28,060 bases of DNA from positions 1 through 28,060 of IMG/VR virus record IMGVR_UViG_3300044825_000279; one strand, given 5' to 3'. Below the pieces are notes generated by a model. That model did no database searches and was not told the DNA's origin. It saw nothing but the letters and a program-made list of their open reading frames with translations. Position numbers and translations under genes: made by a program. This DNA comes from a virus. Of the stretch, positions 2,220 to 26,969 are shown piece after piece; positions within the stretch are counted from its first letter, which is position 1, and every line of letters starts with the position of its first letter.

Positions 2220-2473
2220 GCATTGAAGCAATGAAGCAGGCATTGGATGCGTTGGAGATGTTGGCGCGGTATGAGAATCCCGAGACAAAAATTCAGGTCA
2301 GGAAGCCTAAAGACGGCGGGCCAATAGTGACCATGTATCCGCACAAGGTCGCATCTGATGCTGCTGCCGCCCTTCGCGTTGCCATCGAGCAGAAGCCTGT
2401 GCTTTGGTACCACCCGTTGAGCGGGCGCGTGCGGTTTGAAGCAACGCTAAAATGGATACCGTTGTACAAATGA
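2216..2473 (+). CDS. Hypothetical small early phage protein
   Basis: An 85-residue protein beginning MSIEAMKQALDALEMLARYE. This opening (a short amphipathic helix with repeated ALxALE) is common in small phage proteins of unknown role that accompany Ea22-like genes. The C-terminus (PVLWYHPLSGRVRFEATLKW) is aromatic-rich. Its stop overlaps the preferred start of the helicase gene as ATGA (2470-2473). No enzymatic motif is visible. Confidence 0.65.
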   Translation: MSIEAMKQALDALEMLARYENPETKIQVRKPKDGGPIVTMYPHKVASDAAAALRVAIEQKPVLWYHPLSGRVRFEATLKWIPLYK

Positions 2474-3759
2474 AGCTCCGACCCTACCAAGACGAGGCCG
2501 CAGATTTCTTGTTCGCCAACGACCGCGCGATGATCCTCGCGTGGGTCGGCGCGGGCAAGACCGCGACCGCGCTCACGGCCATGAAAGCAATGCTGGACGA
2601 GCGCCACGCCAAGCGCTTTCTTGTGCTTGCGCCGCTGCGGGTCGCGCAGTCTGTCTGGCCGGCAGAAGCCGCGCTCTGGGCGCCAGGTCTTGAGATCGCG
2701 GTTGCCGTCGGCTCGCCCGCGCAACGGGCGCGAGCGCTTGCGTCCAGCGCGCCAGTGGTTGTCACCAACTACGACAACCTGCTGTGGCTGTCGGAGCAAA
2801 AACTCAACTTCGATGCGGTTGTGTTTGACGAGCTGACACGGCTCAAGAACCCATCAGGCAAACGGTTCAAGGCGCTCCACAAGGTGATCGAGCCCATGCA
2901 AATCCGGTGGGGGCTGACCGGCAGCTTCACGTCCAACGGTCTTGAGGACGTGTTCGGTCAGTGCAAGATCGTCGATCAGCAGATGCTGGGCCGCAGCAAG
3001 GGCGCGTTCTTGCAGCAATACTTCCACTGCGTCAACCGCGACTTCGGCGACTACGTGCCGTTACCAGGCGCGCTTGATGCGGTCATGCAGCGCATACGCC
3101 CGTGGACGTACGTGCTGGAGTCGCACGAGTACCGCGACACGCTACCGCCGCTTTACACGCTACCGATCAAGCTCCAGATGCCTATGGAGCCCTACAAGAC
3201 GCTCAAACGCGAGATGGCGCTTATCTACCCCAACGCCGAGGTCATCGCCGCCAACGCCGCGGCGGTGACGTCCAAGCTCCAGCAGATGAGCGCTGGGTTT
3301 GTCTACGACACGGCCCGACAAACCGTCTGGCTGTCTGACCACAAGCTCGATGCGGTCGCGGACCTGCACGCCGAGAACCAGCGTGCGCCGATGCTCGTCT
3401 GGTATCAGTTCAAGGCGGAGCTTGCCGGGCTACAGTCGCGCTTTCCGCGCTTGCAGACGCTCACCAACGACGACTCGATCGCGCGGTGGAACGCGGGGCA
3501 GATTGAGATGCTGGCGGTTCATCCGGCCTCTGCTGGGCATGGGCTCAACCTGCAAGGGCAATCGCGCATGGTGTGGATGTCGCTCCCGTGGTCGCTGGAG
3601 CTCTACGAGCAGGCGGTCGGTCGGCTGCACCGAGGCGGCCAGCGCCATGACGTGCTGAATTATGTGCTCACGACCGAGGGCACGGTCGATGAAACGATCT
3701 GGAAGGCTTTACATGAGAAACGAGAGGTATCTGATATGGCACTAGAGGCGCTCAAATGA
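2470..3759 (+). CDS. SNF2-type DEAD-like helicase
   Basis: A 429-residue superfamily 2 ATPase. Motif I is GAGKT (residues 27-31), preceded by the Q-like LRPYQ. Motif II is VFDELTRLKN (about 118-127), the DEL-type Walker B seen in phage SNF2 helicases in place of DEAH. Later motifs are GHGLNLQ and QAVGRLHRGGQ (about 381-391), with the arginine finger. Both RecA-like lobes are present, and the length is typical of phage SNF2 proteins. These act on DNA in replication, recombination or transcription; the substrate is unknown here. I chose ATG 2470 over ATG 2452 because it overlaps the upstream stop as ATGA and begins directly at the conserved MKLRPYQ. It is the largest protein of the rightward operon. 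Confidence 0.92.
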   Translation: MKLRPYQDEAADFLFANDRAMILAWVGAGKTATALTAMKAMLDERHAKRFLVLAPLRVAQSVWPAEAALWAPGLEIAVAVGSPAQRARALASSAPVVVTNYDNLLWLSEQKLNFDAVVFDELTRLKNPSGKRFKALHKVIEPMQIRWGLTGSFTSNGLEDVFGQCKIVDQQMLGRSKGAFLQQYFHCVNRDFGDYVPLPGALDAVMQRIRPWTYVLESHEYRDTLPPLYTLPIKLQMPMEPYKTLKREMALIYPNAEVIAANAAAVTSKLQQMSAGFVYDTARQTVWLSDHKLDAVADLHAENQRAPMLVWYQFKAELAGLQSRFPRLQTLTNDDSIARWNAGQIEMLAVHPASAGHGLNLQGQSRMVWMSLPWSLELYEQAVGRLHRGGQRHDVLNYVLTTEGTVDETIWKALHEKREVSDMALEALK

Positions 3760-17214: not shown

Positions 17215-17991
17215 TCAGATATGTTTCCAAGACCGGCGCTTACGGATGTCGGTAATCGACTGCCGTGATACGCCGTATTTCAGAGCTAAGTCTTTCCCAG
17301 GTTCGGAACTAGCCCGAATCGCCAGCACGTCTTCCGCTGTTATCTTCGCAGCATAGCAAGTCTCACCTTGTTTTCCAACGCGTTTGTGATGCACGACTTC
17401 CCCGGCAATGTGCCGCCAAGAATGCCGTTGCTTCAAGCTGCCGATGGTTGACGCGGTGACACCGTAGTCTGCGGCAATCGCAGCGTAAGGGCGTGGGTCT
17501 GCGAGAATCGCAGCCGCTTGCTCATCTGTAAGGATGGCATTTGGCCGTTCAACGCCGCGTGGAGCGCGATTGCGCCCTTTTGCGACTTTTTCTGCCATGT
17601 TCTCTGCGTTAGTGCCAGAGCGAAGATGCGCGGGATTTACACAGCACGGGTTGTCACAAGAGTGAAGCGCTTGCGTTCCTACTAGCAGATCGCCAGTGTG
17701 AAACGCTAACGAAAAGCGATGCGCTTTTTTGAAGAGCACGCCACCAACCTCACCCTTAAACATTCCGTAGCCGTTTTTATCCCTTGCGCCAATCCACTCC
17801 CAGCACGTATCAGTCTTTTTGACTTGCATAAAGAACCTTGTCTCGGCGGGCAAGCCGCGAAACTGTCCTGAATGCTGCGCAACCGCTATCGGCGAACCAA
17901 ACTTACGGTTTCGCTTCCAGTGTTTGTCGCAAAGTCCTAAAGCCAACACGACGTTCTCGCATTCCTTGATACAGCAGATTTTGGGGTTCAT
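17215..17991 (-). CDS. Free-standing HNH homing endonuclease
   Basis: 258 residues. A zinc-ribbon-like N-terminus (C6, C7, C11, C21, H24) is followed by an HNH core: KKAHRFSLAFHTGD and ALHSCDNPCCVNPAHL, with GTNAENMAEK (H110, C112, C116, N119, H122). The C-terminal third has two related DNA-recognition repeats, about 153-196 and 215-258, each ending in a helix-turn-helix and SWRHI or SWKHI. This repeat layout is typical of intron- or phage-encoded homing nucleases. It lies between coat and the decoration-type gene in the same orientation. Its GGAG and ATG lie in the 3' arm of a perfect inverted repeat. Confidence 0.93.
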   Translation of the reverse strand: MNPKICCIKECENVVLALGLCDKHWKRNRKFGSPIAVAQHSGQFRGLPAETRFFMQVKKTDTCWEWIGARDKNGYGMFKGEVGGVLFKKAHRFSLAFHTGDLLVGTQALHSCDNPCCVNPAHLRSGTNAENMAEKVAKGRNRAPRGVERPNAILTDEQAAAILADPRPYAAIAADYGVTASTIGSLKQRHSWRHIAGEVVHHKRVGKQGETCYAAKITAEDVLAIRASSEPGKDLALKYGVSRQSITDIRKRRSWKHI

Positions 17992-18056: not shown

Positions 18057-19206
18057 TTAGCCCCAGAGACGGACGGCCATTTGCGGCCGGATGACAGAAT
18101 ACCCGTACAATACATCGATGCGACAAGGAAGTCGATCATTATTGATGTCGTATTGCCGTACGATACGCATCGAAATGCCGTTGTGAACCTGGCGCGAAGC
18201 CATGTCCACGCCTTGCGGCATCAGCAGATCGGCGGTCGCAAACGAGATCGCGTCACGGTGATACACAAGGTTCTGCGGGTACTGGGTGCTGGCGCTTCCC
18301 AAGAAGGTCACAACTGCGCCTGCCTGCGGGAACGAGTCCACGGTCGCCAGAGCTTGCGAGCTGGTGTAGATCGCCGGGCTCACGCTGACAGTGTACGCGC
18401 CGCTGGACGCGGTAGCGTCGGCAGTAGCAACGAACTGCTGCAGCGAACCAGTCGACTCACGGGTCTGCGGGTTAACCGCAAACACGCCAGCGATCGTGAA
18501 CACGTCGCCTGCCCGGATGATCTGCGAGCCAGTGCCGGTGATGGCAATGGTGGTCGCGCCTTGCGAGGACACGGTGGTCGTCACAGTATGCGCGCCCGTG
18601 CGGGTGCCGGTCGTGAACTGCTTGATCGACTGGGACATGTTGACTTCGTCAAGCCCGAGGATGCCTTCGCCCATCATGCCGTTCTTAAACTGACGGCTGA
18701 TGGTGGAGGTCGGGTTAAAGAGGCCTTTCATGCCTTCGACCAGCGCTGCGTTGGCCGCCGGGTTGACGGTCGCGTAGCGGGGGCTCATAACAGCAGCGGC
18801 TTCGTTCAGCTTCTGCTGCGCCTGCAGCAGCACGAGGCTGGTGCCGGGGGTCGTGCCGGGGGTGCCAACCGACTGGTAAACGTTACGGAAGGCGTTGGCA
18901 ACGTCAGCGTCGATGCTGGAAGCAAGCTGGCTGATACGAGGCTTCAGAACCCGTTCTGCGAAGTCATCGAGCTGCATGGTCAGCTCAGCGGTCGTGAAGT
19001 TCACGCCGATGTGCTTTTGGCTCGACACGGTCAGGGTGGTGAACTGTTCCTGATCGTCTTGAACTTGCAGCGCGGCACCGTCGGTCACCAGCGCGCGGTC
19101 CGGCAGACGGATACGCAGGGTGGAGCCGATTTTTGCGCCTTGAACAGCAAACGAGTCGTCGTACTGACGGTTAACGTTGCGGGTGATCACCAGGTTGTTC
19201 TCGAGG
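18057..19206 (-). CDS. Major coat protein, exon 2 (residues 18-400)
   Basis: P22-type major capsid protein. The exon begins at the predicted 3' splice site and supplies the third base of codon 18, then LENNLVITRNVNRQYDDSFA, GAKIGSTLRIRLP and NFTTAELTMQLDDFAERVL, the strongly conserved N-terminal region of this family. The middle carries an Ig-like insertion-type stretch (about 190-290) and the end reads INNDRLPCRIDVLYGYSVIR. The frame is open upstream to 19268, but the 21 extra residues are intron sequence and not coat-like. With exon 1 it gives 400 residues (53 + 1150 nt). The product forms the capsid shell after scaffold-directed assembly. Confidence 0.92.
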
Positions 19207-19967
19207 CCATGTGTTCGCCAAGGTTCGCTACGCCTTGACCGCCCTTTCGGGCTGCTGCATGTCACCATGCAGAGCAGACTATCTCTTCACCCTCTTACGA
19301 GGGGCTGTGCGCTTCCGGCCGCTTGGCCGTACTCCCTTACGGGATAGTCGTTACACCTTCCGCTGGTGAGGGCAAACGCCGCCGTTTTTGTGTTTACCGA
19401 CCTGACAGTTCATGCACAGCACTTGATAGCCGGGCGGGAACTTGTGCTTACACAACCAAAGATAGAACGCTGTGCCGCTGCTGCGATACGCACCAGACTT
19501 ACGCTCCACGTTGCCATCGTTGTTGATGTGGTCGATCGACAAAAACATCCGCTCAGTTTCGCCGCAGCACGCGCAACGATAGCCACCATAGGCAGCAAAT
19601 ACTTCGTCGCGTCGCCGGTCTTGGTTACGCTTTGTCTTTGCAGCTTCAGCAGCGCGTATGGCCGCTTCTTCTTCGGGACTTGCGTTTGCCAATTTCCGGT
19701 TGCGCCATTCGCGAGCGTGTTCCCGTGCTTTTTCACGGTTTTGCTCACGCCATTCGCGCATGCGTCGGTTGAATTCTTCACGGTTGCGTTCACGATAGCG
19801 AGCAGCGGCTTGGCGGTTAGCCTCGCGTGCTTCTGCTGCTTTGTCACTATCATGATTACCTTCACTTTTGGCTTGGCTCGGTGTTTTCATGTAATCATTC
19901 TACATGACGTCCACCGAATTCACACAGTTTTTCTACTGGGGTTACCCCCAGAGGAGACCATTAGTTA
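19207..19967 (-). ncRNA. Group I intron (td-like, IA2) in the coat gene
   Basis: 761 nt. P1: exon GAGAU (ending 19968) pairs with GUCUC (19958-19954), with U.G exactly at the 5' site. P2: CUGGGG-GUAA-CCCCAG (19951-19936). P4: GGUGG (19915-19911) with UCACC (19369-19365). P7: GACUAUC (19349-19343) with GAUAGUC (19283-19277). P9: CUGCAUG-GUGA-CAUGCAG (19272-19255), then the hairpins CCC-GAAA-GGG and CAAGG/CCUUG. The stretches UAACGACUAUCCC and GCUCUGCAUGGUGACAUGCA match the T4 td intron as I remember it. It ends in G at 19207. Joining the exons restores the coat frame (AU|C). P3, P6 and P10 were not resolved. Confidence 0.92.
19351..19890 (-). CDS. Intron-encoded HNH homing endonuclease
   Basis: 179 residues. 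The N-terminal half (20-95) is a long Arg/Glu helix with repeats like REQNREKAREHAREWRNRK, probably a DNA-contacting rod. The HNH domain follows: CACCG (C106, C109), LSIDHINNDGN (D120, H121, N123), then YQVLCMNCQVGKHKNGG (C159, C162) with a zinc-ribbon frame. It likely cuts intronless coat genes to spread the intron. Its TAA stop is part of the conserved UAACGACUA core, as in T4 td/I-TevI, though I-TevI is a GIY-YIG enzyme, not HNH. The ATG sits in a 6-bp stem (CATGTA/TACATG, 19906-19888), so initiation may be restrained by folding. No clear Shine-Dalgarno. Confidence 0.92.
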   Translation of the reverse strand: MKTPSQAKSEGNHDSDKAAEAREANRQAAARYRERNREEFNRRMREWREQNREKAREHAREWRNRKLANASPEEEAAIRAAEAAKTKRNQDRRRDEVFAAYGGYRCACCGETERMFLSIDHINNDGNVERKSGAYRSSGTAFYLWLCKHKFPPGYQVLCMNCQVGKHKNGGVCPHQRKV

Positions 19968-20020
19968 ATCTCGAGTGCTTTCCTGGTGATCATGTCAATC
20001 GTTAAGATTGAATTAACCAT
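19968..20020 (-). CDS. Major coat protein, exon 1 (residues 1-17 plus 2 nt)
   Basis: ATG 20020 with AAAGGAG upstream (about 11 nt). It reads MVNSILTIDMITRKALE and then AU, the first two bases of codon 18; the unspliced frame stops two codons later (I, N, stop). The family start MxNxLLTxxMITxEAL...VLEN is matched only when exon 2 is added, giving KALEI-LENNLV. Unspliced mRNA would give a 19-residue dead-end peptide. Too short for gene finders, hence easily missed. Confidence 0.88.
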
Positions 20021-20050: not shown

Positions 20051-20830
20051 TTACCTACCGTGTTTTGCTTCCCACATCCGAATCTGGCGCTGCCGTTCGG
20101 CTTCGATCCACTCGCTCGTGCTCATAGACTTCAGTGAGCGCGGGTCTGTGGTGTCGTAGGCCGGCCCGCGAGACGAGCCAGCGGCAACAGGTTGAATCGG
20201 CGCAGGGGCGTTAGACGGCTTCTTAACAGGTGGGCTCGAGGCCACTTTGGCTTCGATTTTCCCGATTTCTTTAGCCTGCAAAATTGGCGATAGGCGCGAG
20301 ATGCGATCCGCTTCTTTCGGGTTGAGCCCAAGGTAGTACGCTACATCGGGGCCAACGTCGGACGCCTGAATCGTCTGGGCCATCACGGTGGTGATCTTCA
20401 GACTTGGGTTGTACGCAACAGCTTCAAAATCTTCGTACTTGTCCCGAGCCTGCTCTTCCTTGTCGTGATACGACTCCAGAATCGCTGTTTGTTGACGCTC
20501 CAGTTCCCGTTGTTGCAAAAGCTGTTCGGCCTTTTGAGCTGCCAGTGCTTCGGCGTATTGCTCAACTGACTCAAACTGACTTTGCGAAACAGGCGCGGGG
20601 GCTGCAACTTGCGGTGCTGCGACAGGCGCTTTACTGCGATCACGTTCCCACGTTCTACGTTCTCTTGCGAGGCGTTTTCCAATCATCGCGTCCACTTCTT
20701 CTTGCGTGAACGTCTTGACTGTCTCCGGCGATGCTTCAACGGTTTCAGGCGTAGCCGTTACGACCTGTTCCGGCGCGGGTGCTTGCGCCGCTTCCGGCGC
20801 GTCCGCTACAACTTCAGGAGTGTTTTCCAT
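20051..20830 (-). CDS. Scaffolding protein
   Basis: 259 residues directly before coat, the usual scaffold position. An acidic, Ala/Pro/Glu-rich N-terminus (ENTPEVVADAPEAAQAP) is followed by FTQEEVDAMIGKRLARERRT and a long charged coiled coil with QKAEQLLQQRELERQQTAIL (about 97-122). A globular part (ISRLSPILQAKEIGKIEA, about 179-196) precedes a linker. The C-terminus is basic and helical (STSEWIEAERQRQIRMWEAK), as in P22-type scaffolds, where it binds coat. The protein directs procapsid assembly and then leaves. The FTQEEVDxxIxxRLARERxxWE pattern is common in phage scaffolds. Confidence 0.88.
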   Translation of the reverse strand: MENTPEVVADAPEAAQAPAPEQVVTATPETVEASPETVKTFTQEEVDAMIGKRLARERRTWERDRSKAPVAAPQVAAPAPVSQSQFESVEQYAEALAAQKAEQLLQQRELERQQTAILESYHDKEEQARDKYEDFEAVAYNPSLKITTVMAQTIQASDVGPDVAYYLGLNPKEADRISRLSPILQAKEIGKIEAKVASSPPVKKPSNAPAPIQPVAAGSSRGPAYDTTDPRSLKSMSTSEWIEAERQRQIRMWEAKHGR

Positions 20831-26051: not shown

Positions 26052-26210
26052 CTACCTCTTTTTAGCTGTTTTAGCCGACTCTTTGAACGCTTTTGCGGTC
26101 GGTGCACCGGGTGCCCCCGGCTTTCGCATTTTCTCGCCAGACCCAGCTTTGATGCGCTCGCGTTTAGCGTGAATCGCTGCGTACAAACCAGGATCGCCGG
26201 GCTTTTTCAT
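26052..26210 (-). CDS. Small basic phage protein
   Basis: 52 residues: MKKPGDPGLYAAIHAKRERI then KAGSGEKMRKPGAPGAPTAK and a Lys-rich end. The KPGDPGLYAxIHAKRERIKAGSGEKMRKPGxxGAPT pattern is a recurrent small phage protein near terminase and portal. It is rich in Lys, Arg and Gly and probably binds nucleic acid. It begins by ATGA overlap with the HNH gene and ends 2 nt before the next gene. Confidence 0.8.
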   Translation of the reverse strand: MKKPGDPGLYAAIHAKRERIKAGSGEKMRKPGAPGAPTAKAFKESAKTAKKR

Positions 26211-26704
26211 TTGTGCGCTCCAACCGCAAGTTCTAGTCTATCGTCGCCAAGAAATTGTGCAACATCTCGGCACAACTCATAAAAATCTTCGTATGCAAAG
26301 TCTGATTTCATGCGATTTATTGCTTGGCACACCAAAATTGTATTTTCTGGCGTGTAGCCAATATCACTGTGAATGCGCTCTATAGAGACTGTATTTAGAT
26401 GCCCAGCTTCAAGCGTCATTTGGCGTCCGCTGTACGCGCATACGCCCCATTGAGTGTGCCAACACTTAACAATGTCTTGAATTGATAGAGAAAATTCTTG
26501 GTTGCGTTTAGCCGCGCTGTTTTTGGCGTTCCGCAAAAATACGCGAGCGCGGCCTTCAATCGTAGAGTTTATTTTTTCAAGCGAGCGAGCACTTCCTTTG
26601 CGGCAACATTCTTTGCACCAACTATGATAGCCGTCTGCCGTCTGCGCATGCTTAAAGTACAAGTCAAACGGCTTGCTGGTCTTGCACTTAAAGCAAGTCT
26701 TCAT
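26207..26704 (-). CDS. Free-standing HNH endonuclease with zinc fingers
   Basis: 165 residues from ATG 26704. The upstream open frame (to 26770) lies in the previous gene, and MKTCFKCKTSKPFDLYFKHA is the natural beginning. CxxC (4, 7) and WCKECC (30, 33, 34) form a zinc finger. The nuclease part has WGVCAYSGRQM, AGHLNTVSIERIHSDIGYTP and ENTILVCQAINRMKSD, which is the HNH-like order (Ser-Ile-Glu-Arg, Asn, Cys-x-x-x-Asn). Such genes are homing or packaging-associated nucleases. It sits in the compact terL-portal string and could be a recent insertion or a P22-like packaging accessory; the first is more likely. Confidence 0.85.
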   Translation of the reverse strand: MKTCFKCKTSKPFDLYFKHAQTADGYHSWCKECCRKGSARSLEKINSTIEGRARVFLRNAKNSAAKRNQEFSLSIQDIVKCWHTQWGVCAYSGRQMTLEAGHLNTVSIERIHSDIGYTPENTILVCQAINRMKSDFAYEDFYELCRDVAQFLGDDRLELAVGAHK

Positions 26705-26705
26705 G

Positions 26706-26969
26706 TCAGCATTTCCATCGTTTGAGTGACGCCTTAGCGCGCTCTGCGTCGCCTTTGGCATTCCTGACAACTCCTGACATGCGGGCGCAGAAGGATGCTT
26801 TGCGGCCTTTGTCAGCTTCAGTCTTCGGGTTGGGTGCGGGCGCTTTGAGGTTGCTGCCGGTGGCTGCGTTGTACTTGGCTCGGCCTTTGGCTGTCAGGCC
26901 AGCTCCCTTGGACACGGGCAGCTTCTCGCCGCGCCCCACTGCCAGACTCACAGATTTCTTCGTCGCCAT
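26706..26969 (-). CDS. DUF6321 small phage protein
   Basis: 87 residues from ATG 26969, which overlaps the terminase stop (TGATG). MATKKSVSLAVGRGEKLPVS, KGAGLTAKGRAKYNAATGSN and LKAPAPNPKTEADKGRKASF make up a well-known short phage protein that ends KGDAERAKASLKRWKC. The single-Cys ARMSG motif is conserved. It is highly basic and probably interacts with DNA during packaging, which is inference from composition and position. Confidence 0.85.
   Translation of the reverse strand: MATKKSVSLAVGRGEKLPVSKGAGLTAKGRAKYNAATGSNLKAPAPNPKTEADKGRKASFCARMSGVVRNAKGDAERAKASLKRWKC

Follow-up and report, generated by a model that had tools for sequence, protein, structure and literature searches.

The window analysed here is the whole of a 28,060-base stretch of a virus record, and its coat gene lies on the minus strand, the strand to which all features described below for the window belong. 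This gene encodes a major head protein of P22 type (Pfam P22_CoatProtein 8.7e-36; PHROG 283 9e-72) and is split: exon 1 (19968 to 20020) runs from an ATG at 20020 through 17 codons plus AU (MVNSILTIDMITRKALE-AU) and exon 2 (18057 to 19206) restarts at 19206 and ends with a stop at 18057. Between the two lies a 761-nt intron (19207 to 19967, running from UAACUAAUGG to ACACAUGG) identified by Rfam RF00028, empty sites and covariation, and inside it is an HNH endonuclease ORF of 179 aa (19351 to 19890). A scaffolding protein gene (20051 to 20830; PHROG 8865) is found just upstream of the coat gene. The preliminary description of the locus had given the span as 19207 to 20020, which ends at the coat start codon and so covers exon 1 too. 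Two further endonuclease genes are present in the window: another HNH gene (HNH_3, PHROG 59) at 17215-17991, immediately downstream of the coat gene, and an HNH/endonuclease VII-like gene at 26207-26770, flanked by the genes for terminase and portal.

The insert contains the helices of a group I ribozyme. P1 (19954 to 19972) pairs exon GAGAU (19968-19972) with GUCUC (19954-19958) and has a U.G pair at the splice site, P4 (19878 to 19917) pairs 19912-19917 with 19878-19883, and P7 (19277 to 19349) pairs 19343-19349 with 19277-19283 in a 7-bp helix (GACUAUC/GAUAGUC) that encloses P7.1, P7.2, P3' and P8. The P3' strand is at 19305-19311, with its partner strand at 19921-19927. P2 with a GUAA loop, P3 and P8 were also found, P9 with a GUGA loop lies at 19255 to 19272, and P9.1, P9.2 and the 3' splice site with its terminal G occupy 19207 to 19254. 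P5 (19887 to 19907) is a hairpin, UCAUGUA-GAAUGAU-UACAUGA, whose 3' strand holds the start codon of the HNH ORF and which is matched by the leader of free-standing HNH genes. All of the elements first picked out by eye, namely the P1 U.G pair, the two loops, P4 and the 7-bp P7, are present. A search with the Rfam group I model, which had been proposed as a check, gave 37.5 bits for a 1.1-kb stretch (E 9.8e-8; E 1.1e-7 against the whole record), which does not reach the RF00028 gathering score of 50 bits; the default Rfam scan is empty because of this curated cut-off, and E-value mode was needed. The ORF splits the intron core. The check thus favours a group I intron by E-value and falls short by the curated score, and the assignment was therefore accepted on covariation together with the empty sites.

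Covariation was assessed across 39 distinct introns at this site with the ORF removed. Compensatory changes on both sides occur in 30 of 67 helix pairs, each helix tested has 94-100% standard pairs, and RNAalifold recovers the helices unaided, the P7 pseudoknot excepted. In the core helices P3, P4, P7 and P8, 98.5-100% of the pairs are standard, and P3 and P8 also carry compensatory changes, while the td-like extensions P7.1/P7.2 and P9.1/P9.2 are 97.9-100% paired, also with compensatory changes. Every intron examined reads GAGAU followed by UAA across the 5' junction, has the U.G pair in P1 and ends in G, and the exon GAGAU is invariant across the intron-bearing loci. Coat relatives begin with M(A/S/G)NS(I/L)LTIDMITRKALEI or near that, and ...ITRKALEI-LENNLV is unbroken in nearly all of the 80 relatives retrieved with the coat protein, one of them (L005) carrying the intron at exactly this position; the splice points put forward earlier (19968/19206, a 761-nt insert) are borne out by these uninterrupted reading frames. 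Helices, covariation and empty sites agree with the original reading of a td-like group I intron with an HNH ORF, and on comparative sequence grounds the insert is confirmed as a td-like (IA2) intron in a P22-type coat gene. The intron would be expected to self-splice, restoring a normal coat mRNA.

Relatives were gathered by coat-protein and HNH-protein queries, the set was then widened and duplicates were removed, the loci being metagenome contigs. An uninterrupted coat gene with no HNH gene was seen at 180 loci (161 of these with at least 800 nt upstream), an HNH-bearing intron inserted at the identical nucleotide at 56, and a free-standing HNH gene with an uninterrupted coat gene at 32, the free gene being located between the scaffold and coat genes. 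These counts are not frequencies, because the HNH protein served as a query and enriched for HNH. One further locus, L243, has a 248-nt intron at the same site (1552-1799) with no ORF and a td-type P5, bringing the distinct intron loci to 57; this intron is 98.7% identical to that of the HNH-bearing locus L109 over 156 nt of 3' core. As an ORF-less intron occupies the same site, the HNH cassette is optional. The HNH relatives were all beside this coat gene (80/80 in a first scan and 79/79 new loci in a second), no locus of the sample has both the intron and a free-standing HNH gene in one genome, and 13 bacterial-genome loci with this coat gene have neither intron nor HNH gene.

The N-terminus of the intronic HNH protein is encoded by P4'/P6 and its stop lies in UAACGACUA adjoining P7, while the stop of the free gene falls anywhere from about 11 nt inside the coat gene to 23 nt before the coat start. 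HNH identity comes from the PHROG HNH families (E 2e-5) and from CxCC, IDH..N, CMNC and CPH motifs that are invariant in 21 aligned HNH proteins. Pfam gave no domain and NCBIfam no family for this protein, a PDB sequence search returned weak matches only, likely coiled-coil, and the best PDB match in a fold search with the predicted model is a phage endonuclease, itself weak (E 0.26). The gene is under purifying selection in both states (median dN/dS 0.10 in the intron, 0.12 when free). A tree of the distal coat gene, built with FastTree and with a topology that coat-gene recombination could distort, needs 23 changes for the free state and 22 for the intron state, both scattered, and the elements therefore appear to move among coat lineages, as expected of homing.

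In order to compare the coat genes themselves, free-HNH loci were contrasted with HNH-free loci column by column. Out of 1176 coat columns, the 4 that differ most between the two groups are all no more than 18 nt away from the insertion point, at -8, -6, -18 and +7 (JSD 0.63, 0.43, 0.38 and 0.37; next 0.24; median 0.009). The changes at these positions leave the coat protein unaltered and distinguish a naive site type, CTCGAAATC followed by CTTGAG across the insertion point, from a recoded type, TTGGAAATC followed by CTTGAA. When free-HNH loci are set against their nearest HNH-free relatives, the whole-gene mismatch peak is at codons 7-15 (0.34 vs 0.11 overall), a peak shown neither by intron phages nor by comparisons among naive phages. 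On the coat tree, T at -8 accompanies the free HNH gene in 18.3 of 23 independent pairs and runs counter to it in 1.0 (median p 8e-5). The simplest reading of these sequences is that the free enzyme would target the intron site, and that a recoded target would protect its carrier and be copied along with the gene.

The correspondence between recoding and the free gene has exceptions in both directions. T at -8 is missing in 3 of 27 free-HNH loci (L151, L155 and L393), where C is kept; near 4048 in L155 we observed a junction codon ATG (Ile to Met) in place of the silent -8 change. Recoding is likewise not exclusive to free-HNH loci, since 7 of the 27 free-class sites (-18 to +7) recur in HNH-free loci, and T at -8 together with A at +7 was found in six HNH-free loci; in three of these another, unrelated HNH gene, or what looks like a relic of it, lies alongside. 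This other gene is an HNH_3-type endonuclease gene on the opposite strand that fills the scaffold-coat gap in HNH-free loci (L258 1066-1698, L060 1448-2077 and L233 1125-1685, each on the minus strand; also L037, L210, L228, L033 and L071). Among its carriers with full coat sequence 3/7 have T at -8, and as the other four are unrecoded there we rejected it as the cause of recoding. At about 1680-1760 in L197 the gap resembles a deletion relic of an HNH_3-type gene, with ends like those of L233, and the recoded site is kept.

The two arrangements of the HNH gene also have an RNA element in common. In HNH-bearing introns of the window's group P5 reads UCAUGUA-NNAUGAU-UACAUGA, and the same hairpin recurs directly upstream of free HNH genes. 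A P4-P5 profile finds matches immediately before the free HNH gene in 23 of 32 such loci; these are individually weak (best E 0.019), the 14 best matches all fall upstream of free HNH genes, and naive control loci gave no match at that spot. In most free-HNH leaders the hairpin is longer, has covarying pairs and buries an AGGAG ribosome-binding site in its 3' arm. Hairpin and ORF behave as a cassette, because L243 has a td-type P5 whereas the remainder of its intron is close to that of L109. The hairpin loop of P5 and of the leader also holds a promoter -10-like TAGAAT (19897-19902 in the window; TATAAT in several relatives), reminiscent of the late promoter at I-TevI (PMC2988022); the reading of this loop as a promoter was set aside.

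Taken together, we consider it highly probable that the locus houses a self-splicing coat intron and an HNH homing endonuclease that exists in two states, one of them beside a recoded target. The td/IA2 intron would leave the coat mRNA by self-splicing so that normal coat protein is made, and the intron-encoded HNH enzyme would cut, at the insertion site, the intronless coat genes of relatives infecting the same cell, with repair of the cut allele copying the intron across. The free-standing form of the same endonuclease, upstream of an uninterrupted coat gene, would home to the same site, silent recoding of the target sparing the free gene's own genome and travelling along by co-conversion. 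The mobile unit would include the hairpin, which would serve as ribozyme helix P5 in the intron form and as a leader hiding the ribosome-binding site in the free form. Empty sites, a conserved ribozyme, both arrangements, recoding, a scattered distribution and purifying selection on the HNH gene are directly visible in the sequences, whereas we infer from them that the intron splices, which site the enzyme cuts, that recoding protects and is co-converted, and which way conversion runs.

The order of events can be read in two ways. One possibility, which we hold tentatively and at rather less than an even chance, is that the free genes are intron escapees: one ancestor would have left with its P5 hairpin, surviving only beside a recoded coat target, and the hairpin would have become a switch over the free gene's own ribosome-binding site. 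Such an escape would reverse the accepted order, in which a free gene invades an intron. The alternative, only just short of an even chance and concerned solely with the order of events, is that no escape took place: an ORF-less intron would have been invaded by a free HNH gene that was already adapted to the coat site, along the route described by Bonocora and Shub. Invasion has the published precedent, and the ORF-less intron of L243, with its td-type P5 and near-identical 3' core, is of the kind it calls for. Against it, the shared segment spans P5 into the ORF, with the core strands P4'/P6 inside, which a single outward transfer of one contiguous segment would explain slightly more simply than invasion by the ORF. 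The HNH DNA tree (core-encoded ends removed) splits cleanly by arrangement (support 98/91). Midpoint rooting puts the free clade within the intron forms, which also argues against invasion; outgroup and non-reversible rooting of the HNH tree gave no usable root support. HNH protein trees, with and without far outgroups, have 1-6 arrangement changes and no firm root, and we preferred the DNA tree because columns encoded by the ribozyme core bias the protein trees.

A different objection concerns the recoding: its silent changes could simply be hitch-hiking with the adjacent HNH gene, neither offering protection nor marking a target. With only some 45-80 nt between the end of the HNH gene and the site, linked variants are to be expected, and the recoded site is common to some HNH-free loci. 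Codons 1-6, however, are closer still to the HNH gene and lack strong differentiation, the differentiation peaks around the intron insertion point and declines on both sides, and the association repeats in about 23 independent coat lineages. We regard hitch-hiking as unlikely and a recoded target as the better account.

It is very improbable that the intron is dead or unspliced, with coat protein made from an internal start such as the ATG at 19268 within the intron: a 403-aa ORF does begin in the 3' part of the intron, but relatives have the coat N-terminus given above, and splice-site bases and ribozyme pairs are kept across diverged introns. That the insert is an assembly artefact of a record that is a single metagenome contig can be dismissed as practically negligible, being refuted by independent copies, near-identical as well as diverged, at the same nucleotide in contigs of many different dataset numbers.

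Knowledge of how group I introns and homing endonucleases join rests on few phage pairs, and here one conserved coat site occurs in four natural states: empty, with an ORF-less intron, with intron plus HNH gene, and with a free HNH gene beside a recoded site. At a single site it thus becomes possible to test in which order events took place, how well a highly expressed gene tolerates an intron, and whether silent recoding gives resistance. In a close parallel Bonocora and Shub reportedly found in 2009 that T3 gene 5.3 and I-TslI of phage phi-I are homologous HNH enzymes, one free and one intron-borne, that cut at the same position. As in that pair, the coat-gene system has homologous HNH enzymes both within an intron and next to copies of the same gene that lack one; it differs in lying in a coat gene at dozens of loci and not in the DNA polymerase gene of a few T7-like genomes, in its additional ORF-less intron and recoded targets, and in that cutting is here predicted from comparison. 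F-CphI and the psbA intron of cyanophage S-PM2 likewise combine a free-standing endonuclease with the insertion site of an intron at which it is aimed (PMC6083498), an arrangement discussed with collaborative homing (PMC6083498, PMC10448857); there intron and free gene are in one genome, whereas here no locus has both.

The T4 td intron (IA2) with I-TevI is a close relative of the ribozyme. The resemblance of the core ends put forward earlier holds up: the two are 77% identical over 104 nt, a stretch that takes in the P9 region as well as UAACGACUAUCCC, where the I-TevI stop is found, and the endonuclease stop lies in the same UAACGACUA in both. In td, too, translation of the endonuclease is tied to an RNA hairpin (PMC2988022), but the host gene is thymidylate synthase and the enzyme GIY-YIG, in place of coat and HNH, and P5 is here replaced by the hairpin carrying the ORF start. 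The HNH ORF within a td-like core had suggested exchange of the td endonuclease; both components are indeed there, yet 574 phage records have part of this 3' core, so that it is widespread and not special to td, and HNH genes near td-like cores are common among phages. We therefore set aside replacement of GIY-YIG as the main story. A closer account would be that of a coat-specific HNH gene occurring both inside the intron and free-standing beside the same gene. Like the free HNH genes, those of I-TevI, I-TevII, I-TevIII, SegB and Aeh1 MobE have a ribosome-binding site enclosed in a hairpin (PMC2988022); in contrast to these hairpin-regulated genes, the hairpin here matches the intron helix P5.

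The preliminary description had called group I introns in coat genes seemingly uncommon, a claim that, like that of a td endonuclease exchange, is borne out only in part. At this site the element is common (57 distinct loci), and capsid-gene introns are documented in mycobacteriophage LittleE, by RT-PCR and N-terminal sequencing, and, as cited in the same report, in lactococcal phage Tuc2009 (PMC3706429). LittleE resembles our system in that its major capsid gene is interrupted by a group I-type intron carrying an endonuclease ORF and in that it has intronless relatives. It differs in that its splicing was demonstrated whereas ours is predicted from sequence, in its different capsid gene and in an ORF on the opposite strand (HNH in a legend and LAGLIDADG-like in the text); the parts of the LittleE report consulted describe no free-standing counterpart (PMC3706429). 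In another podovirus (L164, MW202512) the major capsid gene has, at about 2470-3260, what looks like a further group I intron that was left unannotated; it carries an HNH gene (42% identical), and the annotation gives only an icea protein and a capsid protein starting downstream. Targeted searches of the open-licence literature found no report of the present coat-gene system. Introns in capsid genes are thus already known and that part is not new; what is new is a coat site in four states, silent recoding of a target, and a hairpin common to a ribozyme and a free gene.
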